From Chloroflexota bacterium (lineage in GTDB: Bacteria > Chloroflexota > Limnocylindria > Limnocylindrales > CSP1-4): 42,271 bases of DNA. The position numbers and the translations under genes are program-made. The stretch is from positions 80,054-122,324 of the forward strand of contig PMYK01000029.1 of assembly GCA_003171255.1 (NCBI GenBank), written 5' to 3'. Below, in pieces: positions 30,323 through 40,706 of this stretch. The notes under the pieces are model-generated. The model ran no database searches. It was not told the origin of the DNA and saw only the letters and a list, made by a program, of their open reading frames with translations. Numbering within the stretch: position 1 is the first letter of the stretch; every line of letters begins with the position of its first letter.

Positions 30323-30976
30323 CTAGTCTGGAGTGGGCTCCCAACCGGATGCCGATACGGCTTCGTTGAAGGCGGCCGCCGGATCGAGCCCCGCGTCGAG
30401 GGCGCCGGCGAACACACCGACCATCCGCCCGAACGAGCCGTCGTCATCGACCGGAGCCTCGAGCACCGTCGCGTCGACTGGAACCGCCGGCGGCGCCGAC
30501 CCGGCCGGCACCAGAACGATCAATCGGGCGCCGGCAAAGGCAGCGCCTTCGATCCCCGCCGCGATCGCGGAGTCGGAGATTGGATCGGCCAGCACCACCA
30601 CTCCAGCCTCAGGCAGGAAGCTAAGGGCCAGGTCCAGATCGGCGGCCTCGAGCGCCGGCCGAGCATCGGCGTCTTCGGGGAGCAGCCGTGCCGTCGGACT
30701 ATCTGCGTCCACTTCCGCGGCATCGTCGGCGGCATCAACCGCCAGCACGGGCGTGGGTCGGGCGGGGTCGCGGAGCAGCGCCGCATGGCCGATCCCCATG
30801 CGCCCGAGCGCCACCACCACGGCATCCCCTGCCCCATCGTTGCCGATCTTCCCCACAAGCTCGACCTGGGCGCCACGGCGCCTGGCCGAGGCGGCGACCT
30901 CGACGGCCAATCCGGCGGCGCACTTCTCGCCGTCCGGCGAATCGGCATAGGCGGGCAGCCCAACCACGACGATCAC
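30323..30976 (-). CDS. PfkB/ribokinase-like protein lacking the catalytic motif
   Basis: A 217-residue protein whose first half resembles PfkB-family sugar kinases: MIVVVGLPAYADSP, then AAGLAVEVAASARRRGAQVELVGKIGNDGAGDAVVVALGRMG, the family's N-terminal signature 1 region. The C-terminal signature (DTxGAGD) with the catalytic Asp is missing; the corresponding region reads VDDDGSFGRMVGVFAGALDAGLD. The protein is also about 80 residues shorter than usual. It is thus likely an inactive or repurposed nucleotide/sugar-binding protein. The GTG start overlaps the stop of the upstream peptidase gene by 4 bases, so it is coupled to the M16 pair. Confidence 0.72.
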   Translation of the reverse strand: MIVVVGLPAYADSPDGEKCAAGLAVEVAASARRRGAQVELVGKIGNDGAGDAVVVALGRMGIGHAALLRDPARPTPVLAVDAADDAAEVDADSPTARLLPEDADARPALEAADLDLALSFLPEAGVVVLADPISDSAIAAGIEGAAFAGARLIVLVPAGSAPPAVPVDATVLEAPVDDDGSFGRMVGVFAGALDAGLDPAAAFNEAVSASGWEPTPD

Positions 30977-32406
30977 TCGGCCTCCTCCTGGGTCTCGCCT
31001 GCCTCCGCATCGGCCGGCATCTCCTCGGTGATCACTTCAAGCTCGCCGAAGCCGGCAGACTCCAGGTCGGCTGCGACCGCATCGGCGTCGCCGACGGCAA
31101 CGATCGCCAGTCGATCGGGGTGTATGTGATCCTGCGCGGCCTTCTGAACCGCGGCGACGCTGACTCCCTCGACCTCTCGGCGGTAGCGGGTCAGCTCGTC
31201 ATCGGGCAGGTCGTGGACGAAGACGCCGGTCAGGGCCGCAACAACCGCCCCGGGAGTCTCGAAGCGCAACGGGAAGACGCCGACGAGGTAGTCGCGGGCG
31301 GCAGCAAGCTCGGCGGCTGTCACCTCCGTCTCGCGCATGCGACGCAACTCGGCCAGCGACTCGGAGATCGATGCGACGGTCGCCGCCGTCTGAACAGCCG
31401 TCCGCACCGAGAACGGGCCCGGGCCGCGGCGCATGTCAAAGCCCGCGCCGATGCCGTACGTATAGCCCTTGTCCTCGCGCAGGTTCATCTGGAGTCGCGA
31501 GTTGAACAGGCCCCCCAGGATCGCCGCCATGACCTGGACCGCGTGGAAGTCGGGCACTCGACGGGCCAGCCCGACGTGGCCGATCCGCAGTTCGGTCTGG
31601 ACGGAGCCGGGTCGGTGGTAGAAGCGGACTATCGGGCGGTCCACCGCCGAGGCGGCCCTGGGCGGCCTGGTGCCCGCGTCGGCCTCGACGCCGGCGGACG
31701 ACTCCACCGCTCCAAACGACCCGAGCGCAGCCCCGACCAGACGCGGCACGTTGAGCCCGCTCAAGTCGCCGCCGACGATGACGGCAGTTCGGTGCGGATC
31801 GAGCACCGTCCGGTGAACCCCGCGCAGAACGTCGGGCGTCAGCCGCGGAACAGTGTCCTCGTCACCCGCCGCGGGCCTGGCGTAGGGCGAGTCGGCGGTG
31901 TAGAGAGCGGCGGTGAAGGCTCGATCGACGCGCCGCCGCGGGTCGGCCTTGACTTGCAGCAAATCGTTCAGCCGCTCGTCGCGCAGACGCGCGACATCAG
32001 ATCCGGGGAACGTGGGCCGCTCCGCCAACTCGGCGAGCAGCTCCAACGCCGCGCGGAGACGGCTCGCGGCAACGTCGACAGACACGGTGAAGGCATCCCA
32101 GCCGGCGTCGACGTGGAGAGTCGCGCCCAACCGCTCCCCGGCCTCGATCAGTTCGACTCCGGGATAGTGCTGAGTACCTTCGGTCATTGCCCGCGCGGCC
32201 AGGACAGTGGCTCCCGCGATCTCGGCGGGCTCGTCGCTGGCTCCACGCCGCACGACCAGGTTCGCCGCCACGATTGGCCGGCCCGGCAGATTCACAGCCA
32301 GAACCTGCAGACCGGAGGGCAGGACCGTCCGCTCGAACTGCGGGAACTCGTAGGTTCGCGGCCGCCCTGGCGACGGACGCGCCGAGAGGATCTGCTCGAG
32401 CGTCAT
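30973..32406 (-). CDS. M16 family peptidase-like subunit without zinc-binding motif
   Basis: A 477-residue insulinase/processing-peptidase-type protein. The fold is clear (VLPSGLQVLAVNLPGRPIVAANLVVRRG, and the C-terminal M16C part with YTYGIGAGFDMRRGPGPFSV). The catalytic HxxEH is replaced by VLAAR in AGATVLAARAMTEGT, so it cannot bind the zinc. In two-subunit M16 enzymes an inactive subunit with the R/Y pair in the C-terminal half binds substrate; here RGPGPFS and KGYTYG fill that role. The ATG overlaps the stop of the active subunit gene (ATGA), and the end overlaps the PfkB-like gene. Confidence 0.9.
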   Translation of the reverse strand: MTLEQILSARPSPGRPRTYEFPQFERTVLPSGLQVLAVNLPGRPIVAANLVVRRGASDEPAEIAGATVLAARAMTEGTQHYPGVELIEAGERLGATLHVDAGWDAFTVSVDVAASRLRAALELLAELAERPTFPGSDVARLRDERLNDLLQVKADPRRRVDRAFTAALYTADSPYARPAAGDEDTVPRLTPDVLRGVHRTVLDPHRTAVIVGGDLSGLNVPRLVGAALGSFGAVESSAGVEADAGTRPPRAASAVDRPIVRFYHRPGSVQTELRIGHVGLARRVPDFHAVQVMAAILGGLFNSRLQMNLREDKGYTYGIGAGFDMRRGPGPFSVRTAVQTAATVASISESLAELRRMRETEVTAAELAAARDYLVGVFPLRFETPGAVVAALTGVFVHDLPDDELTRYRREVEGVSVAAVQKAAQDHIHPDRLAIVAVGDADAVAADLESAGFGELEVITEEMPADAEAGETQEEAE

Positions 32407-33716
32407 GCGGCCGTCTCCTCGTCGGTCGTACCGGTCGCGGTCTCAGTCAACGGGAGATACGTCAGCACGACCCGGTTGTCCGGCCGGAGCACCTCCGCCG
32501 CCGCCCTCTGGATATCCGCCGCGCTAACCGCGAGATACCGGCCGAGCTGGCGGTTGACCATGTCGGGGTCGTCGAGAAGGGTGGCGTACATGGACAGCCG
32601 ATCCGCCCGCTCGTCGACCCGCTGGAGGGATTCCATCTCGTAGGTCTCGATCAGAGCCCTAGCGCGTGAGAGCTCGTCATCGGTCACGGGCTCGCGGCCG
32701 ATACGCTCGAGCTCCTCCTCGAAGCCTCGCTCGAGGGCGGCCAGATCGGCGCCCGGGCGCGCAGTCGCATGGCCTGCCACCAATGACGCCCCACCTGTCA
32801 GGCCCAAGGTGAAGAACGCCACGTCCTGGGCAATACGCTCCTCTCGCACGAGCCGCCGATACAGACGGCTGCCCTTGCCACCGGCGAGAATCTGGGCCGC
32901 CACCTCCAGCGCGTCGTACCGTAGATCGCCCAGCACCGGCGCCCTAAAGCCGAAGAAGAGGCGCGGCAGCGGCACTCGATCCTCGACGACTTCACGCGAC
33001 TCTGCGCCAATGATGGGAGGCAGGCTCATGTCGCCGAGCACCGGGATTGCCGGGTTGGCCGGGATCTCGCCGAAGTAGCGCTCGACCCATGACCGGGCCT
33101 GGGCCGGCTCGACGTCGCCGACGATCGAGAGGACCGCGTTGTTCGGCGCGTAGTAGGTTCGGAAGAAGGCGGCCACGTCCTCGAGTGACGCGGCGTCGAG
33201 GTCCTCCATGGACCCGATCGTGGGGTGGTGGTAGGGGTGGTCCGGCGGGAACAGATGCTCACCCAGTTTGTGGAACCACGTCCCGTAGGGTCGGTTGTCG
33301 TACGAGGAACGCTTCTCGTTCTTGACGACGTCGCGCTGGTTGTCCAGGTTCTCCTGGTTGAGGGCATCGAGGAGCGTGGCCATTCGGTCCGCCTCGAGCC
33401 ACAGCGCAAGCTCGAGCTGGTGGCTCGGGACTGTCTCGAAGTAGTTGGTTCGGTCGAAGAAGGTCGTGCCGTTGAGGGTGCCGCCGGCGGCCTGGACGAG
33501 GGCCATGTGCTCGGTCTTGGCGACGTGGCCCGACCCCTGGAACATGACGTGCTCGAAGAGATGGGCGAAGCCGGTCTTGCCCGGCACCTCGTGCTTGGAG
33601 CCGACGTTGTACCAGATGCACACCGCCACGACGGGCGCCAGGTGGTCTTCCGAGATGATCAGGCGAAGGCCGTTGGCCAGTCGCTCGTCGGTGAACCTGA
33701 CGCTTGGGGCGGTCAT
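32403..33716 (-). CDS. M16 family zinc peptidase, catalytic subunit
   Basis: A 437-residue M16 metallopeptidase. The inverted zinc motif is HLFEH (His52, Glu55, His56) with the third ligand Glu134 in VVKNEKRS, so the site is complete. The later M16C half has YRRLVREERIAQDVAFFTLGL. No signal peptide is seen; it would act in the cytoplasm unless exported by another route. It pairs with the inactive subunit encoded immediately downstream, forming a heterodimer like bacterial processing peptidases. I chose the ATG at 33716 because GGAGGAG lies 9 bases upstream; ATG 33734 is an alternative. The region upstream is divergent from the ArsR-type gene. Confidence 0.93.
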   Translation of the reverse strand: MTAPSVRFTDERLANGLRLIISEDHLAPVVAVCIWYNVGSKHEVPGKTGFAHLFEHVMFQGSGHVAKTEHMALVQAAGGTLNGTTFFDRTNYFETVPSHQLELALWLEADRMATLLDALNQENLDNQRDVVKNEKRSSYDNRPYGTWFHKLGEHLFPPDHPYHHPTIGSMEDLDAASLEDVAAFFRTYYAPNNAVLSIVGDVEPAQARSWVERYFGEIPANPAIPVLGDMSLPPIIGAESREVVEDRVPLPRLFFGFRAPVLGDLRYDALEVAAQILAGGKGSRLYRRLVREERIAQDVAFFTLGLTGGASLVAGHATARPGADLAALERGFEEELERIGREPVTDDELSRARALIETYEMESLQRVDERADRLSMYATLLDDPDMVNRQLGRYLAVSAADIQRAAAEVLRPDNRVVLTYLPLTETATGTTDEETAA

Positions 33717-33853
33717 TCGATCCAGCTCCTCCATGGGCGCGCCGCTTTCTTCGCGACGGTCACGCGGGTTCTGGCATTGTACGGGCCAGGGCCCCATGTC
33801 TCAGAAGCAACGCCTTCCGTGACTCCCCCGACGCTCGACGTGTTAGGCTTCCA

Positions 33854-33869
33854 TCTAACAGATGTTAGA
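33854..33869. promoter_or_regulatory. Perfect 16-bp palindromic operator
   Basis: TCTAACAGATGTTAGA is fully self-complementary and lies 11 bases before the ATG of the ArsR-type regulator. A further half-site (GTTAG, 33842-33846) lies nearby. It fits an ArsR/winged-helix operator for autoregulation, and could also affect the divergent M16 operon. Confidence 0.65.
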
Positions 33870-33880
33870 GCAAGATACCA

Positions 33881-34966
33881 ATGGCCACCCTGCGTAACCC
33901 AATCAGCGCCCCGATTAGACCTGGCGGACTTGTCCGTCCAGGCCTGACGACTGCGCAGCTGCCGGCCGTGGACATGGATCCACGAACCTCTTACGACTTC
34001 CTGACGAGCGCCTGCCTCGAATGCGGCGAGCTCGCAGACCTCCTGCCCGAGGACCGACGCTGGCTCGAGGAATCGCGCGCTGCCCTCGCGACCCAGATTG
34101 GGTCCGAGACGTTCGTTCGAACGTGCACGGGTTTCGTGGCTGAACTCGGCCGAATGCTTGTGGAGCGTCCGGAGATTCGGACGGCTCGGGATGTCGTCGA
34201 TGCCATCGATGCCATGGCGGATGCCCAGCTGCTTGAAACGATGGTCGGCGAGCTCCTCGAGGATCCCGATCTGGGCGTGCTCACCCGCCGCGCAATCGAC
34301 GGCGATGCCGATGCCTACGGCGAGCTCGAGGCCAGACTCGACTCGTATAAAGGCCACCCGGTCCTGACCAGGCCGGCGGCCGAGCTTGCGCCCCTTGCCA
34401 GGTCGGTGGTTCATTTCTGGCTGCCCCGCTATGAGGTGGTCGAAGCCCGCATCGGCCGCATGCTCGACCAGGACGTTGCGGCCCGCGGCCAGGACGACAT
34501 TGCCCGCGATCCGATCGGCTTCGTGGAGCGGACCACCAACGGCATCCGTCTCGTACCTGAGCCGCGCATCCGCCGCATCGTCATGGCCCCCAGCTACTTC
34601 GGCCGTCCGTACAACTCGCTGACCAAAGTCGGCGACGTGCAGCTCATCTGCTATCCCATCGCGGATTCGGCCCTCGGCGCCGCGGACCGACTCGATCCCC
34701 CGGCCGCGACGGTGCGCCTGTACCGCGCCCTTGGCGACGACAGTCGCTTGCGAATACTGCGGCTCCTGGCCGAGCGCGAACGGTACCTGACCGAGCTTGC
34801 CAACGAGCTGGGGCTCAGCAAGCCGACCGTCAGCCATCACATGGCCCAGCTTCGCAGCGCAGGGCTAGTGACCGTTTCGAAGCAGGGCAACCTGACCTAC
34901 TACACCCTTCGCCGCGACCGTGCCGACGAGGCCGGCCCTGAACTGAGCGCTTACCTGGCGCACTGA
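33881..34966 (+). CDS. ArsR-type winged-helix regulator with a large N-terminal domain
   Basis: A 361-residue protein. The C-terminal 80 residues form an ArsR-like winged helix (LYRALGDDSRLRILRLLAER and ELGLSKPTVSHHMAQLRSAGL, about 280-345). The first 270 or so residues are a helical domain (CLECGELADLLPEDRRWLEE and on), which I cannot name beyond a similarity in layout to other large ArsR-type regulators with effector domains. No metal-binding Cys pair typical of ArsR/SmtB is evident in the winged helix. The ATG at 33881 follows a 16-bp palindrome that is probably its operator. The downstream small protein and MFS transporter on the same strand may be its targets. Confidence 0.85.
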   Translation: MATLRNPISAPIRPGGLVRPGLTTAQLPAVDMDPRTSYDFLTSACLECGELADLLPEDRRWLEESRAALATQIGSETFVRTCTGFVAELGRMLVERPEIRTARDVVDAIDAMADAQLLETMVGELLEDPDLGVLTRRAIDGDADAYGELEARLDSYKGHPVLTRPAAELAPLARSVVHFWLPRYEVVEARIGRMLDQDVAARGQDDIARDPIGFVERTTNGIRLVPEPRIRRIVMAPSYFGRPYNSLTKVGDVQLICYPIADSALGAADRLDPPAATVRLYRALGDDSRLRILRLLAERERYLTELANELGLSKPTVSHHMAQLRSAGLVTVSKQGNLTYYTLRRDRADEAGPELSAYLAH

Positions 34967-35024
34967 CCGATGAACCCATCGCCTGTTCCGCATCATCACT
35001 TCGCAGCACCGGGAGGACGCCGAG

Positions 35025-35261
35025 ATGTGGCGTGACGACCCAGAACTACGGCTCGGGATTGCCAACGAGAGAATCGCGCAGCTTCGCATTGAGGCCTCAG
35101 CGGCGTGTCTTGCGAAGCCGTGCCCGGAAGAAGACGAGCCGCCCCGCTTCGACGGCGTCCGCATTCAGGTCGGCCGGCTACTCATCATGGTGGGCCGGAT
35201 GAATGCCGAGTGGGCGCCTCCCTCCCCTACCGCCCCACCCAAGCGGCGCGCGATTGTCTGA
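35025..35261 (+). CDS. Small hypothetical protein
   Basis: A 78-residue protein: MWRDDPELRLGIANERIAQL, a charged helix, then an acidic linker (PCPEEDEPPRF) and a hydrophobic patch (GRLLIMVGRM). I do not know the family. The start has GGGAGG about 9 bases upstream, which is a good ribosome binding site. It lies 58 bases after the ArsR-type gene and 87 bases before the MFS gene, on the same strand. Confidence 0.55.
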   Translation: MWRDDPELRLGIANERIAQLRIEASAACLAKPCPEEDEPPRFDGVRIQVGRLLIMVGRMNAEWAPPSPTAPPKRRAIV

Positions 35262-35348
35262 AATGCGACAACCGCGACCCGCACCGCGTGCAACGACCCC
35301 TGCCCCGACTGCGCATAACGCTCCTAGCGGTCTGCCGCGGGGGGCCGC

Positions 35349-36668
35349 GTGACCGGGTCGCTGGCCCGGTACGTGCACAGCTTTACGGGATTCGGCCGCG
35401 ACGCACGACTCTTCCTTCTGACCACGATCGTCTACGGCGCGGCCGTAAGCCTGTACTGGATCGACTTCAACCTCTACCTCAAGTCGATCGGGGTCGACAA
35501 CTCGACGCTCGGCTGGATGCTGGCGCTGTCGATGCTGGCAGGCGTCGTGGTTGCGCTTCCGGCGAGCGCGCTCTCGGACAGATACGGGCGGCGTTCGGTC
35601 ATGGCCGCCGGCATGGCTCTGGTGGCGGCTGCGCTGTTCGCGTTTCTGCCGGGAAATCGGGCCCTGCTGGTCGTGGGCGTGATGGCCTATGGCGCGGGCT
35701 CGCAGATCGTGTCGGTGGTGCAAATACCGTTCATCGCAGAGCACACCCTGCCGGAGCAGCGGAATACGTACTTCTCCGTCTGGTCGGCCTTCGGCTTCCT
35801 GACCTCACTTATCTCGGCCGTGGTCGGCGCCCAGGTGGCGACCGCCCTCGCGGGCCAGTTGGGACTCACGTCCGAGGCCGCCCCGTACCAGATACTCCTG
35901 GCGGGCGTTGCCGTGCTGGGCGTGGTTGCGCTCGGAACCGTCTACCTGCTGACCAACGACCGACCGGCCGTCGACCGCGTGCGACATCCCGCCCGGAGCC
36001 GATTCGGCCTGGTGATCCTCGACCGGCGCCTCTTCTTTCGGCTCCTGCTGCCGGGCTTCCTGACCTCGCTCGGGGCGGGTCAGCTCATTCCGTTCCTCAA
36101 CGTCTTCATGCAGACGAAGTTCAACCTCGACCTGCCGGTCGTGAATCTCATATTTGCCGTGACCAGCCTGGGTACTGCCTTCGCCATCCTGGCGCAGCCC
36201 GCACTGGCCAGCCGGTTAGGCCGGATCGGCTCGATCGTACTCGTTCAGGGGGCCAGCATTCCGTTCCTGTTGGTGCTCGGATTCTCGCCGGTGCTGTGGA
36301 CGGTCGTGGTGGCCCTGACCGTGCGCAACTCGTTGATGAATGCGGGCAGCCCCATCTTTGATGCCTTCGCGATGGCGCGGGTCTCGCCCGCCGAACGCGC
36401 CACGCTCGCCGCCGGAATGACGATGCTGTGGTCGCTGGGCTGGATGTTCGCGATGCCCTACTACAGCCTGCTCCAGGCCACGCTCGGCTTCACGGCCGGC
36501 TACGCGGTGGACTTCATCACGATCATCGTCCTGTATACGATCGCGACGTCGCTGCTCTGGACATGGTTCCGGGACAGCGATCGAGCTGCCGCGGCGGAGT
36601 CAGCCGACGTGGAGCCGATGGTCCTGCCTGTCGCGACCGAGGCACCCGCTCTGCTGGACCACGCCTGA
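35349..36668 (+). CDS. Major facilitator superfamily transporter
   Basis: A 439-residue MFS permease with about 12 hydrophobic spans. The cytoplasmic loop between TM2 and TM3 reads ALSDRYGRRSVMAAGM, the MFS motif A (GxxxDRxGRR), and the central loop (NDRPAVDRVRHPARSRFG) separates the two halves. The substrate cannot be told; the drug-exporter-like layout would fit regulation by the ArsR-type protein. The GTG start at 35349 has only a G-rich stretch upstream. It converges with the anti-sigma-like gene 61 bases away. Confidence 0.9.
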   Translation: MTGSLARYVHSFTGFGRDARLFLLTTIVYGAAVSLYWIDFNLYLKSIGVDNSTLGWMLALSMLAGVVVALPASALSDRYGRRSVMAAGMALVAAALFAFLPGNRALLVVGVMAYGAGSQIVSVVQIPFIAEHTLPEQRNTYFSVWSAFGFLTSLISAVVGAQVATALAGQLGLTSEAAPYQILLAGVAVLGVVALGTVYLLTNDRPAVDRVRHPARSRFGLVILDRRLFFRLLLPGFLTSLGAGQLIPFLNVFMQTKFNLDLPVVNLIFAVTSLGTAFAILAQPALASRLGRIGSIVLVQGASIPFLLVLGFSPVLWTVVVALTVRNSLMNAGSPIFDAFAMARVSPAERATLAAGMTMLWSLGWMFAMPYYSLLQATLGFTAGYAVDFITIIVLYTIATSLLWTWFRDSDRAAAAESADVEPMVLPVATEAPALLDHA

Positions 36669-36729: not shown

Positions 36730-38454
36730 TCAGGGAGTGGCGGTTGCCGTTGGAGACGACGCGGCAGACGACTCCGGTTGGGGCACCAGCATCGTCGGCG
36801 CGGCAACGGTCGACGTGTCGCTCTGCAAGGGGCCGAGGACTTGGTTCAGAGCAGCGGAGATGGTCGCGTAGTCGTAGCTGTTGAGCACCGCGCCGCCGTC
36901 GATGGTGATTGCCGGCACTCCCAGCACGTCCAACGGCATCTGCGACTGTTCCGCAGTGATCTCGGCGTTGTGGCTGCCATTGTCGACACAGGAGTTGAAT
37001 GCGGTCAGGTCCGGGATGCCTGCCGCCGCCGCGATGGCCTTCAGTCGATCCTTGCTGAACGCTCCGGAGCCCTCGGTGTGCTGGTTGGCGAAGAGCCAAT
37101 CGTGATAGGGCCAGAACTTGCCCTGGTCGGCCGCGCACGTGGCGGCGTTGGCCGCGTCGAGCGATTCGGTGCCGCCGATGTTCTGGTCGATGACCAGGAA
37201 GTCGTGGAATACGAGCTTGGCTTTGCCGGTCGCGACGTAGTTCGCCACGACCACCGGCTGGATGTCAGTGGTGAAGTTCTTGCATAACGGGCACTGGAAG
37301 TCTTCGTAGACGTCGATCGTGTGCGGGGCGTTGGCGTTCCCGAGCGTCCGGCCGTTGGTCGGAATCGATGAAGGGGTCAGCACATCGGGGGCCCCAGGGT
37401 CGGCCACTTGCCCGACGCCCTGCGGACGGGGCGTGACCAGCGCGAAGTCGACTTCCGAGAGTGGCACCGGCAGCGTCCCGTGCGCGAGGAGCCAGTCCAG
37501 CGATTCCGCATCCGCCCGCGTGAGGCCAGTTGACAACTGGAGAAGACCGTTCTCGATTGAGCCCGTCATCAATACGGTTGTGCGCACCACTCCATCTACG
37601 GTCACCGCGAGGTAGTGGCCCCTGTTGGCTGTGGAGTAAGCGGCCAGCGTGGCGGCCGCGGCGCCCTTGAACGGGACTTGGGCCGCCACAACGTCGTTGG
37701 AACCCCAACCCCACCCGAGACCCGTCGTGTCCACATCGCTGCCCGTCAAGAGAGCGGGCAGGGCGTCGTCGAGAGTGTCGCCTTTCTGTGGAATCGACTT
37801 CGATCCCGGCGCTCCTGCCGTGCCATAGATGCCGGCGGGCAGATCGACGAACTCGACCTGGCCGGTCAGGCCAAGAGAGGCACGGATCGTGTCGGCGTCC
37901 CACGTAACCGTTCCTGCCACGATCCGATAGTCGGCCTGGTAAGTGACCACGACCCGGTCGGGCGGCTGGGCCGTCACCGAATAGCCCACCGGCCCAGAGG
38001 CATCGTTCGCTGGCAGGGGTGAGCCGCCCGAATCCACGACCCGGGCAACCTGGAATATGGCACTGAGCCTGGCCTCGAGGACCGTCACGGTGCCGTTCAG
38101 CTCTGCAGCCGACGGGCTGCCGCCACCCGGAGGCACCAGGCGGTAGGTGATGCTCACGGTCGAACCCGCGGGGTAGGGACCTCCGCCGGAGACGCCGGGC
38201 GACCCTCTCAAACCCAGACCGAAGCCCACGGCCACAGTCACGACGGCCACTACCAGGACCAGCGGCGCCAGCCCGGCGAAGCCGATCCGGGAGCGGATAA
38301 CGGTGCGCCGGGACCGTTCGGCGGTAACGGCCTGACTCCAGTCGCCCGTGGGCGGCGGCGGGACCAATGGTTCGATGTTGGACATGTGCTTGCGAACCCC
38401 CTCCAGGATTTCGGCGTCGGACGCCGCGTGGACGTTCAACTCGTTCTCTTTCAT
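36730..38454 (-). CDS. Putative anti-sigma factor fused to a SecD-P1-like region and a DsbA-like thioredoxin
   Basis: A 574-residue membrane protein with an unusual domain order. Residues 1-55 are a charged cytoplasmic segment (MKENELNVHAASDAEILEGV and on to IRSRIGF) that could hold the sigma factor. One membrane span follows (about 57-82). Residues 95-345 resemble the first periplasmic domain of SecD: ELNGTVTVLEARLSAI, then LTGQVEFVDLP, GHYLAVTVDG, and LTRADAESLDWLLAHGTLPV. Residues 365-545 are a DsbA-type thioredoxin with CPLC (Cys388, Cys391), further Cys440 and Cys489, and the cis-proline VPAIT (Pro514). A Ser/Thr/Pro tail ends it. No zinc anti-sigma motif (HxxxCxxC) is present. The ATG overlaps the sigma gene's stop by 4 bases, which strongly ties the two together. 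Confidence 0.8.
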   Translation of the reverse strand: MKENELNVHAASDAEILEGVRKHMSNIEPLVPPPPTGDWSQAVTAERSRRTVIRSRIGFAGLAPLVLVVAVVTVAVGFGLGLRGSPGVSGGGPYPAGSTVSITYRLVPPGGGSPSAAELNGTVTVLEARLSAIFQVARVVDSGGSPLPANDASGPVGYSVTAQPPDRVVVTYQADYRIVAGTVTWDADTIRASLGLTGQVEFVDLPAGIYGTAGAPGSKSIPQKGDTLDDALPALLTGSDVDTTGLGWGWGSNDVVAAQVPFKGAAAATLAAYSTANRGHYLAVTVDGVVRTTVLMTGSIENGLLQLSTGLTRADAESLDWLLAHGTLPVPLSEVDFALVTPRPQGVGQVADPGAPDVLTPSSIPTNGRTLGNANAPHTIDVYEDFQCPLCKNFTTDIQPVVVANYVATGKAKLVFHDFLVIDQNIGGTESLDAANAATCAADQGKFWPYHDWLFANQHTEGSGAFSKDRLKAIAAAAGIPDLTAFNSCVDNGSHNAEITAEQSQMPLDVLGVPAITIDGGAVLNSYDYATISAALNQVLGPLQSDTSTVAAPTMLVPQPESSAASSPTATATP

Positions 38455-39023
38455 CGCCAGATCTCCGGGTTTCGGCGCAGCGTCTTGCAGGCCCGCGCCA
38501 CGAGTGACCGCACGCCCGAGGCCGAGAGCCCCAGGATTTCGGCGATCGATTCATCATCGAGATCGCGCTGGTAGCGCAGGATCAGGACCTCGCGTTGCCG
38601 ATCGGGCAGCTCCCGCGCGAAGCGGTCGAACCAGAGCCAGAACTCCGTTCGACCGGTATCGGCGGCGTCCGACGGCTCGTGCGCCGGGCTCAATCCAGCC
38701 AGTGGCAGCCATGCGATCAGCCGCCGGCGGCGAACCTTGTCGATCACGAGGCGGCGGGTGATGAGCAGCAGCCACGGCAGCGCCTGCCCGGTTGGGCCGT
38801 GGCCCGAGCACCACGCGGCGTAGGCGCGATGGAACGCCTCGCCCGTCACGTCCTCGGCGTCTTCGGGGCGGCGCAGCATCAGCAGCGCGTACCGGTACAC
38901 GTCCCGATAGCGCTGCCGGTAAAGCGCCTCGAATGTCTCGCCCAGGGTATCGACCGCGCGAGCGTCCCTTACTCGCTCGAGCATCTGGTCAGTCCCTCTG
39001 TCGACGTCCACCAACTCCACCAT
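38451..39023 (-). CDS. ECF-type RNA polymerase sigma factor
   Basis: A 190-residue sigma70-family factor of the ECF group. Region 2 is LYRQRYRDVYRYALLMLRRPEDAEDVTGEAFHRAYAAW, with the usual EDAEDVT core. Region 4 is LPDRQREVLILRYQRDLDDESIAEILGLSASGVRSLVARACKTLRR, including its helix-turn-helix. ATG 39023 gives the full frame; ATG 38984 (13 codons in) has a better ribosome binding site (AGAGGGA) and may be the true start. The gene overlaps the putative anti-sigma gene by 4 bases and follows the site-2 protease gene by 43 bases. Confidence 0.92.
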   Translation of the reverse strand: MVELVDVDRGTDQMLERVRDARAVDTLGETFEALYRQRYRDVYRYALLMLRRPEDAEDVTGEAFHRAYAAWCSGHGPTGQALPWLLLITRRLVIDKVRRRRLIAWLPLAGLSPAHEPSDAADTGRTEFWLWFDRFARELPDRQREVLILRYQRDLDDESIAEILGLSASGVRSLVARACKTLRRNPEIWR

Positions 39024-39065
39024 GCTCTAATTGACGAAGCAGCGGCCCGCTGCGTCCCGCGTCGA

Positions 39066-40706
39066 TCAGGTTCCGGTCCCGGAGACGGCGGCGAGTGCGG
39101 CCCGGCGCGCCGGATCCGCCACCAGGACTCGGAACACAGGATCGACCCCGGCCCGAACGCCCAACTCCGGCCTGGAGGTGGCGGCCTGCTTCAGGAGCCC
39201 CACGGCGGCTGCGACGGCGCCGCCCGAAATCGCCAGCGCCGCCCGCGAATAGGCCACGAACGGGTCCCGCGCCGCCCAGCCCGGCAGGGTCTCGAGCGCG
39301 GCGTTCGCCTCCGAGACCCGACCGAGTTGCGCGTAGCAAATGATCAGCTCGCCTCGTGGTCGGGCGCCGTTCGGGCGGGCCACGGCCGACTCCACCAGAT
39401 GCGGCAGGGCGGCGGCCGCGTTGCCGGCCATTCGCTCGGTCAGGCCAAGCGTCTGGTGGAACTCGGGATGCTTCGGTGCCCCGGCGAGAGCCCGACGCGC
39501 CTCGCCAAGTGCCTCGTCAAAGCGGCCGAGATCGCACAGGATCAGGGCTCGCAATTCGTGCACGGCGGGGTCGCCAGGTTGAGAGTGGAGGAGCGCATCG
39601 ACCCGGCCGAGAGCCTCCTGCTCCTGGCCGAGCAGGTAGAGATACACAGCGTCGAGGTTCATCAGTGCGCGCTGGACCGGCAGACTTTGCGCCGATCCGA
39701 GAGCCTCCAGAACCAGCCGGCGGCTATCGGCCGGTCGATCGACTGCCGCCAGAGCGCTCGCCTGGAAGATCGCGTTCGTGTCGCGAGGGAGCGCCAGGAG
39801 CGCCTGCAGATCTGCGGCTGCCTCCGCGTCTCGTCCCATCGCCAGCCTCACGAGATGGCGTCCGCGCAGGATATGGCCCGATCCGGGATCGCGAAGGAGC
39901 GCCTGGTTGTAGCCCCACTCGGCGTCGGCGTAGCGGGTCATGAGCCGCAACGCGTCGGCGGCGAGGACGATCGGACCGAGGTCAGACGGCCTGTCGGCCA
40001 TGGCCAGCCGCGCGGCGTTGAACGCCTCCTGGTAGCGACCCTCGACGATCAAGTTGGCCGGCGAGTTGGCCGTGCTCTTGCCCACCATCACATCAGAGAG
40101 CGCACCCATCCGGATCGTGCTGAACACGGCCACGAAGCCGATGATGAAGGCCCAGTCGTACAGCCCGGCCAGGACCAGGCCGACGAAGACGGCACCGACA
40201 ACGACCAGACCGACGGCTCGGCCGGCTTGCTCGGCCGGGCGTCCGAGGACGATCGAGGTGATCTCGCTCAGGATCGCTCCGCCATCGACGCCGGGGAACG
40301 GCAGCAGGTTGATGAGGCTCCACCCGAGGTTGACCCACAGCAGATCCTGGACGATCGGTTCCGCCGCGAGGCGCGGAGCGGCCAGGGTTGCGACGGCTAC
40401 CATCCCGCCGACTGCCAGTCCCATGGCCGGACCCGCGGCCGCTACCAGGATGTGCTGGCGGGGAGGGACTCGCAGACCCGTGGTCATTCCGCCGCCGCCG
40501 TAGAGACGTATCGACGGCTTCACCCCGAAGAAGTCGAAGACGGCCGCGTGCCCCAGCTCGTGCAAGAGCACGGAACCTGTGACAACCGCCAGCCACTCGG
40601 GAAGCTGCTCGGGCGTGCGCCAGAACGTGCCCAGCACAACCATGATGATCGCGAAATCTGCCCCAATCGCGATCGGGACGCCGAGGAGCTTGAACCTCAG
40701 CGCCAC
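39066..40706 (-). CDS. Site-2-type zinc metalloprotease (M50) with C-terminal TPR tail
   Basis: A 546-residue intramembrane protease. The membrane part (about 1-245) has the zinc motif HELGH (His49, Glu50, His53) and the third-ligand motif NLLPFPGVDGG with Asp141. CBS and PDZ domains are absent. The rest (about 260-540) is made of helical TPR-like repeats (YQEAFNAARLAMADRPSDLGP, AEWGYNQALLRDPGSGHILRGRHL, LGRFDEALGEARRALAGAPKH and others). S2P enzymes of this type degrade membrane-bound anti-sigma factors after a first cut. The GTG at 40706 overlaps the end of carB by 10 bases; the frame beyond that is carB's shadow. The ECF sigma and anti-sigma genes follow on the same strand. Confidence 0.9.
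   Translation of the reverse strand: MALRFKLLGVPIAIGADFAIIMVVLGTFWRTPEQLPEWLAVVTGSVLLHELGHAAVFDFFGVKPSIRLYGGGGMTTGLRVPPRQHILVAAAGPAMGLAVGGMVAVATLAAPRLAAEPIVQDLLWVNLGWSLINLLPFPGVDGGAILSEITSIVLGRPAEQAGRAVGLVVVGAVFVGLVLAGLYDWAFIIGFVAVFSTIRMGALSDVMVGKSTANSPANLIVEGRYQEAFNAARLAMADRPSDLGPIVLAADALRLMTRYADAEWGYNQALLRDPGSGHILRGRHLVRLAMGRDAEAAADLQALLALPRDTNAIFQASALAAVDRPADSRRLVLEALGSAQSLPVQRALMNLDAVYLYLLGQEQEALGRVDALLHSQPGDPAVHELRALILCDLGRFDEALGEARRALAGAPKHPEFHQTLGLTERMAGNAAAALPHLVESAVARPNGARPRGELIICYAQLGRVSEANAALETLPGWAARDPFVAYSRAALAISGGAVAAAVGLLKQAATSRPELGVRAGVDPVFRVLVADPARRAALAAVSGTGT

Follow-up and report, generated by a model that had tools for sequence, protein, structure and literature searches.

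Gene overlap and autoregulation are features of the sigma/anti-sigma pairs RpoE-RseA and SigW-RsiW. In both pairs, an ECF sigma factor is combined with a membrane-bound inhibitor that carries a class I anti-sigma domain, as outlined in parts of PMC8103513. In the case of RsiV, the outer part of the anti-sigma factor is the direct lysozyme receptor for SigV, according to excerpts of PMC4183432 and PMC5014341. A further arrangement is represented by RsgI of Clostridium thermocellum, in which a conserved inner part carries divergent outer sensors (i.e., CBM3, CBM42, PA14, GH10, protease-like, and NTF2-like); these membrane anti-sigma factors are released through intramembrane proteolysis (PMC12203970). 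Among the matches listed in our literature search, no title or opening of an abstract described an anti-sigma factor with a SecD-P1/DsbA architecture. The available text of a paper on Limnocylindria counts sigma factors, and the terms 'anti-sigma' and 'Dsb' are absent from it (PMC13212565).

The window (the whole stretch of 42,271 nucleotides of Chloroflexota DNA analysed here, from the genome numbered G000 among its relatives) holds on its minus strand the end of carB, an M50-TPR protease, a sigma factor and its membrane partner, followed by a convergent MFS transporter. The sigma gene (38451..39023, minus strand) encodes a short protein of 190 aa in which Pfam detects regions 2 and 4 above the cut-off (Sigma70_r2 1.2e-11, Sigma70_r4_2 7e-12) and which scores 74.5 bits against TIGR02937 (cut-off 42.9), thus identifying it as an ECF-type sigma factor. 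The SigE family model TIGR02983 was the best among the matches listed, though its 95.3 bits fall below the cut-off of 141.55. Core orthologues within the genus are 73-93% identical, and the sigma group of the genus constitutes one side of a tree branch with a support of 93/94. The stop of the sigma gene overlaps by 4 bases the start of the reading frame of the partner (36730..38454, minus strand; 574 aa), a proposed anti-sigma factor made up of a cytoplasmic N-terminus, a transmembrane span, SecD P1, and DsbA. With starts set at the aligned methionine, the 4-base overlap was computed for 10 of the 11 measurable pairs across genomes, and the eleventh (G017) also has 4. The partner therefore has the position and topology of an anti-sigma factor, directly after and overlapping the sigma gene, N-inside and with a single span, and the pair resembles RpoE-RseA and SigW-RsiW in joining a sigma factor to a proposed membrane-bound inhibitor. 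From RsiV, the partner differs in its outer domain and ligand.

The part of the partner proposed to bind sigma is the cytoplasmic N-terminus (residues 1-61; 38272..38454, minus strand), which was aligned in all 12 partners found and has a motif like SDxEILxGVRxRMSxxEPLVPxPP. It is followed by a single membrane span (residues 62-80; 38215..38271, minus strand), recognised by its hydropathy of 2.62 and the charge pattern; because the net charge is +4 before the span and +1 after it, the N-terminus is placed inside. Across this region, M1, D13, L17, R21, E28, P35, and G81 are invariant in the 12 sequences. The motif of class I zinc anti-sigma factors (ZAS) is HxxxCxxC, and it is absent from the cytoplasmic part of the partner, the first cysteine of which is residue 388. 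This, together with the SecD-P1/DsbA outer part, distinguishes the partner from RseA and RsiW. Besides, the N-terminus had no match in NCBIfam or, at E up to 1, in Pfam; Pfam contains an RsgI model, and the RsgI N-terminal domain was not detected in the partner at that threshold. With neither a zinc motif nor a Pfam or NCBIfam match in the N-terminus, the proposal of an anti-sigma role is based on the order of the genes, on topology, and on conservation. Between the sister genomes G000 and G011, the N-terminus and span change faster (dN/dS 0.44) than the fused DsbA (0.34) or sigma (0.13), which counts against the anti-sigma reading.

When the N-termini and spans of the 12 partners were made into a profile and 177 genomes of the class were scanned with it, without using sigma information, 24 matches in 18 genomes resulted. 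These comprised the 12 core partners, 8 further plausible proteins, and 4 that lie in frames with no sigma gene nearby and were judged spurious by eye. Each of the 8 further proteins is encoded immediately behind a sigma gene; because they form a few look-alike groups, they do not amount to 8 separate tests, and in three of them (L167, L174, L177) the similarity lies mostly over the span. It is mainly the inner part that is tied to sigma, as would be expected if the partner is an inhibitor. In these proteins and in other paralogous partners, the outer part is a propeller of the kelch or WD40 type, an Ig-like domain with a weak CAP match, or a region with no Pfam match. Together, the partners of SigE-like sigma factors may form an open-ended group of putative anti-sigma factors with a modular architecture. 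Under a simple rule, 6 of 19 other sigma loci had no convincing partner (L068, L069, L070, L073, L082, L084), and the partner of L069 surfaced later among the profile matches. Other SigE-like ECF sigma genes of the family, followed by single-span partners, were also observed at L067, L071, L075, L083, L169, L172, and L175, with kelch, WD40-like, Ig-like or (below the cut-off) CAP domains in the outer parts.

SecD P1 is thought to bind emerging protein chains. In the partner, residues about 100-337 (37444..38157, minus strand) were assigned to this domain by hhalign and by comparison with the SecD of the genome, and to a divergent subtype of it, P1b, by a tree. The Pfam model SecDF_P1_head matches residues 235-330 (6e-5; 23.3 bits, under the 27-bit cut-off), and the SecD encoded separately in the window's own genome (L003) matches residues 168-339 with 29% identity (E 3e-13). 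When hhalign was used to compare a pair of such regions with the P1 regions of 14 SecD sequences, the probability was 99.7% (E 3e-26, 209 columns), and PDB entry 3aqo (SecDF) matches the partner weakly (E 0.008). Of seven scanned relatives bearing P1, six matched SecDF_P1_head at 6e-18 to 3e-23 and the seventh (L041, of the window's divergent subtype) at 1.7e-4, below the cut-off; the P1 base, SecD_1st, was found in four of the seven. By these comparisons, the assignment of the region as a SecD P1 homologue with base and head holds. The homology to SecD covers the whole of P1, but, unlike SecD, the partner lacks the C-terminal transmembrane export domain, having one membrane window only and P1 followed by DsbA. 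An unrooted P1 tree of 34 rows splits the 12 P1 domains of the proposed anti-sigma factors from 22 SecD sequences (support 97/92). It also groups P1b (G000, G017, and the second copy of G004) with a support of 97/96, where G017 is a long branch and the second copy of G004 is under half filled. The sisters G000 and G011 have sigma factors that are 93% identical (dS 0.32) and a dS of 0.29 over the N-terminus and span, yet their P1 domains do not share a subtype, with identity at 74 of 215 residues and a dS of 1.5. This difference between sisters points either to an exchange of P1 or to the loss of one copy from a tandem pair; either recombination or loss from a tandem P1a-P1b, as in G004, could explain the switch.

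DsbA proteins are thiol-disulfide oxidoreductases. Residues 368-537 of the partner (36844..37353, minus strand) are a DsbA-like thioredoxin domain, matching the Pfam models Thioredoxin_4 (4e-26) and DSBA (2e-9). The cysteines of its CPLC active site (residues 388-391; 37282..37293, minus strand) are present in all 44 filled alignment rows, and a second cysteine pair (440/489) is kept in 43 of them. Residue 514 (36913..36915, minus strand), located by the motif GVPAI (512-516), is the cis-proline typical of DsbA. With a thioredoxin domain, CxxC, and cis-Pro, the domain is a predicted disulfide oxidoreductase. A VKOR gene followed by a DsbA gene lies at L002:673-2190 in the same bacteria; this DsbA is 63% identical to the fused domain of the window and differs in being a stand-alone anchored enzyme beside VKOR, with no sigma gene. 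Several genomes have two DsbA genes in tandem at the VKOR locus (L006, L007, L009, L010), and among the contigs on which a related DsbA part occurs, the three that carry names come from Chloroflexi/Candidatus Limnocylindrales MAGs, an order to which the window probably also belongs. At L053:1869-3629 (G033), a DsbA domain and a region resembling a metallo-hydrolase seem by eye to share a long frame, which may be two genes read as one.

DsbA is fused in 5 of the 12 partners (G000, G011, G001, G006, G020), with CxxC kept in all five. A single clade of fused DsbA domains was rejected (AU p=0.0004, 44 rows). In the 45-row tree, the domains of G000 and G011 fall among the DsbA of VKOR-bearing loci (support 100/99 for the grouping of the window's domain), that of G001 with DsbA genes of the same slot, and those of G006 and G020 apart. 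AU sub-tests, picked after the tree had been seen, set G000/G011 apart from the others (p 0.006 and 0.005). DsbA thus appears to have been captured at least twice; three separate captures, suggested by the tree, were dropped since G001 and G006/G020 were not separable (p 0.21). Alternatively, an older fused DsbA may have been replaced through gene conversion.

The search for relatives covered 61 genomes, their neighbourhoods, and a sigma search of 107 genomes of the family, 26 of which matched at 1e-35. An orthologous sigma gene followed by a partner with the same N-terminus was present in 12 genomes of one genus (21 genomes examined). G004 is counted among the 12 although its sigma gene is interrupted by N, and G005 has a thirteenth sigma gene, inside which a contig edge falls. 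A weak match to residues 12-123 in G016:C65 (L048) was rejected by eye, as it sits in an unrelated protein. The outer part is P1b-DsbA in G000, P1a-DsbA in G011 and G001, P1a-DsbA-LysM in G006 (LysM by eye), DsbA-LysM in G020 and P1a-LysM in G010 (both LysM by Pfam match), P1a-P1b-LysM in G004 (LysM by alignment), P1a with a propeller-like part in G018 (propeller by eye, with Pfam finding P1 only), P1b only in G017, and P1a only in G016, G012, and G007. P1 therefore occurs without a fused DsbA in 7 of the 12 relatives, and DsbA without P1 in one. The combination of SecD-P1 and DsbA is one variant among the outer parts that the conserved unit of sigma and anchor can carry: as read from the aligned loci, relatives keep the sigma factor, the anchor, and the promoter, and exchange the outer part.

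The original prediction for this DNA had described a 574-residue protein starting in a 4-base overlap with the sigma stop, comprising a short cytoplasmic N-terminus, a single span of the membrane, a region similar to SecD P1, and a DsbA-type thioredoxin with CPLC and a cis-Pro. The reading frames (38451-39023 and 36730-38454), the span at 62-80 with its N-in charge pattern, and the DsbA features (Thioredoxin_4 4e-26, CPLC 388-391, GVPAI 512-516) agree with this description, and the P1 assignment is borne out by sequence and profile comparison (own SecD E 3e-13, hhalign 99.7%). The predicted limits were close, with 95-345 against about 100-337 for P1 and 365-545 against 368-537 for DsbA. The coupling of this fusion to an ECF sigma gene also stood: the same architecture lies beside one in other genomes, e.g., in G011 with 57% identity over residues 1-574, and the fusion was not found away from sigma, all 12 partners with the shared N-terminus and P1 and/or DsbA being sigma-linked.

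In outline, the partner is like RsgI of the SigI/RsgI system, with a conserved inner part and divergent outer domains. On the other hand, the sigma factor here is of the ECF type, unlike SigI; the N-terminus of the partner has no Pfam match, so that no RsgI domain is detected; the outer parts resemble export and thiol-redox proteins; and the exchange of outer parts is seen between orthologues at one locus. By analogy, the partner most likely works like the RsgI of Clostridium, yet is not a member of the RsgI family.

An ECF-type promoter, GCGGGAC-N15-TTCGTC (39033..39060, minus strand), lies 9 bases before the start codon of sigma. The pattern GGGAC-N17-CGTC precedes 12 of 13 sigma starts, and the remaining sigma gene (G017) has a promoter with one mismatch to the strict pattern, found by a whole-genome search. 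In G004, G010, and G005, the called sigma frame begins upstream of the promoter, and an ATG matching that of the other genomes follows it. The conservation of the promoter 9 bases before the ATG indicates that sigma probably transcribes its own leaderless operon, i.e., autoregulation. Across 21 genomes, a 14-base promoter pattern had 15 exact matches, of which 12 precede sigma genes and the other 3 lie at different places in G008; allowing one mismatch raised the number to 89 matches versus 45 in a reversed control, 13 of them at sigma genes and 4 elsewhere in the window's genome. A looser exact pattern gave 38 matches in 12 genomes, 12 at sigma genes and 26 elsewhere, versus 13 in the reversed control. 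Several genomes share some of the nearly identical matches. In the window's genome, this looser pattern, GGRAC-N15-YTCGTCA, has a single site, at its own sigma operon. Among 50 loci with SecD or DsbA genes, the full promoter core was not found before these genes, and a loose pattern gave scattered matches in 22, one of which (L021) overlaps the DsbA start. A wider sigma regulon was not adopted, and no second target was established by these pattern matches. In G013, 19 of 20 promoter core bases occur at the same slot position inside the tail of an M50 gene (L090:3995-4025); no sigma pair was found in that slot, and the match is therefore read as the scar of a lost whole module.

The usual frame of the locus in the genus is carB, the slot, MFS, ArsR, M16, M16, with MFS missing there in G015 and G017. 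In the window, the M16 peptidase pair, an ArsR-type regulator, and the MFS transporter occupy 30973-36668 as this conserved frame, and the regulator has a long N-terminal part (HTH at 286-331 of 361). In G021, G024, G030, and G034, four genomes from other genera, the interval from carB to M16 had no recognisable M50, DsbA or sigma of this group; in G024, it includes a 3-kb stretch without assignment. Directly upstream of sigma, the window encodes an M50 (site-2 type) protease with HELGH and TPR repeats (39066..40706, minus strand; Peptidase_M50 1.2e-11, TPR_19 4e-12). M50 genes lie beside 9 of the 12 sigma pairs. They are missing beside the other 3, and 5 of the 6 slots that lack a sigma pair also have them (G002, G003, G008, G013, and G014, whose slot is cut by a contig end; not G015), and we rejected the neighbour as a proven release protease on these grounds; it is a possible processing protease. 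M50 genes with a long TPR tail beside carB come in two subtypes in the genus (the window, L038, L036, L041), and a second M50-TPR copy in G017 lies elsewhere (L098).

A thiol-redox part is present at 8 of the 12 sigma loci, as a fused DsbA in five and as a TlpA-CcdA-like pair in three; the two occur together at none of the 12, and at four loci (G017, G012, G007, G010) neither was found, nor any thiol-redox gene. These pairs, a redoxin/TlpA-like lipoprotein and a DsbD_TM/CcdA-like protein in the slots of G004, G018, and G016, were identified by Pfam in G004 and by identity in the other two. A TlpA-like lipoprotein with a CcdA-like neighbour occurs in 7 of 21 genomes, and in 3 of these 7 at the sigma slot; the probability of this co-location, 3e-7, assumes independence and a 6-kb slot and is a guide only. 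DsbA genes with a zinc-ribbon-like start, a call that is below the Pfam cut-off in the two scanned and by eye in G015, lie in the slots of G001 (beside the fusion), G008, and G015. In slot DsbA proteins, the zinc-ribbon-like stretch precedes a membrane span (L086:3431-4609, L087:1807-2802, L036:2174-3097).

These loci show paired genes, identifiable domains, a conserved anchor and promoter, exchanged outer parts, repeated capture of DsbA, and thiol-redox neighbours; we infer sigma binding, inhibition, the signal, proteolysis, and autoregulation in vivo. The conserved N-terminal region would hold sigma at the membrane, while the outer P1 and DsbA domains would touch newly exported proteins that are still unfolded or reduced. 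A change in export load or thiol state may cause the outer part to alter its shape or to be cut, after which a membrane protease, perhaps the neighbouring M50 protein, would free sigma. Freed sigma would then transcribe its own leaderless operon, giving more sigma and partner in a positive feedback. On the sequences at hand, we consider it reasonably probable that the partner is a membrane-bound sigma inhibitor whose outer part reads export or thiol state and which releases sigma by proteolysis. A tentative and rather doubtful extension would make the system a homeostat, in which the main or only target of sigma is its own two-gene operon and the partner is inhibitor, sensor, and effector at once. 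An export clamp (SecD P1) joined to a disulfide enzyme would then sense by engagement with its own substrates, and the anchor would offer an open sensor place onto which evolution re-plugs housekeeping domains for export, redox, and wall binding.

The main rival takes the outer domains as output, an anchored export chaperone/oxidoreductase made on demand, with the N-terminus as negative feedback and the signal entering elsewhere. The promoter pattern found once in the window's genome, on the operon itself, fits this explanation, as do the CxxC kept in all five fused DsbA and the redox function that forms a separate slot gene in some loci (TlpA-CcdA-like in three, the zinc-ribbon-like DsbA in G001); the kelch, WD40-type or (below the cut-off) CAP domains of the paralogous pairs, which resemble binding domains and not export enzymes, speak against it, and we hold it to be somewhat unlikely. 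It is less likely again that the partner is merely a co-transcribed envelope protein that depends on sigma for expression and does not regulate it. Such a protein would need no known anti-sigma domain, and none is detected, but if only the outer function mattered, the reverse of what is seen would be expected, since the cytoplasmic part and span are kept and the outer part replaced; the 8 further plausible profile matches directly after a sigma gene also argue against this. The source genomes are fragmented drafts, and the G004 and G006 copies are N-interrupted or read in two pieces, as would suit an error of assembly or gene calling, or a chimera that arose only once. The full open frames of G000, G011, and G001, in which sigma, overlap, and promoter are all conserved, refute this explanation, to which we give almost no weight, and the same architecture in G011 at 57% identity means that the fusion is not an assembly accident.

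For a membrane-bound inhibitor with an exchangeable outer part, the original reading of P1 and DsbA as the sensor, in which the CPLC pair or Sec load would be the signal, is thus partly supported, but too narrow, P1-DsbA being one of several outer arrangements. Its redox side gains pathway-level support from the separate DsbA captures and the TlpA-CcdA-like genes at the same locus. Because relatives keep the switch while swapping the outer pieces, our results suggest that conditions outside the cell, in terms of export or redox state, are passed directly to gene expression. With sigma, anchor, and promoter constant and the outer domains varying, the relatives form a natural series, which makes it testable which part senses what. 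If the proposed mechanism is true, RsgI would no longer be the single example of a sigma inhibitor with modular, exchangeable sensors but would be joined by a second one, and a SecD domain would have been recruited for signalling. The mechanism would also give this little-studied bacterial group a direct wire from the export and disulfide-forming steps outside the membrane to transcription.
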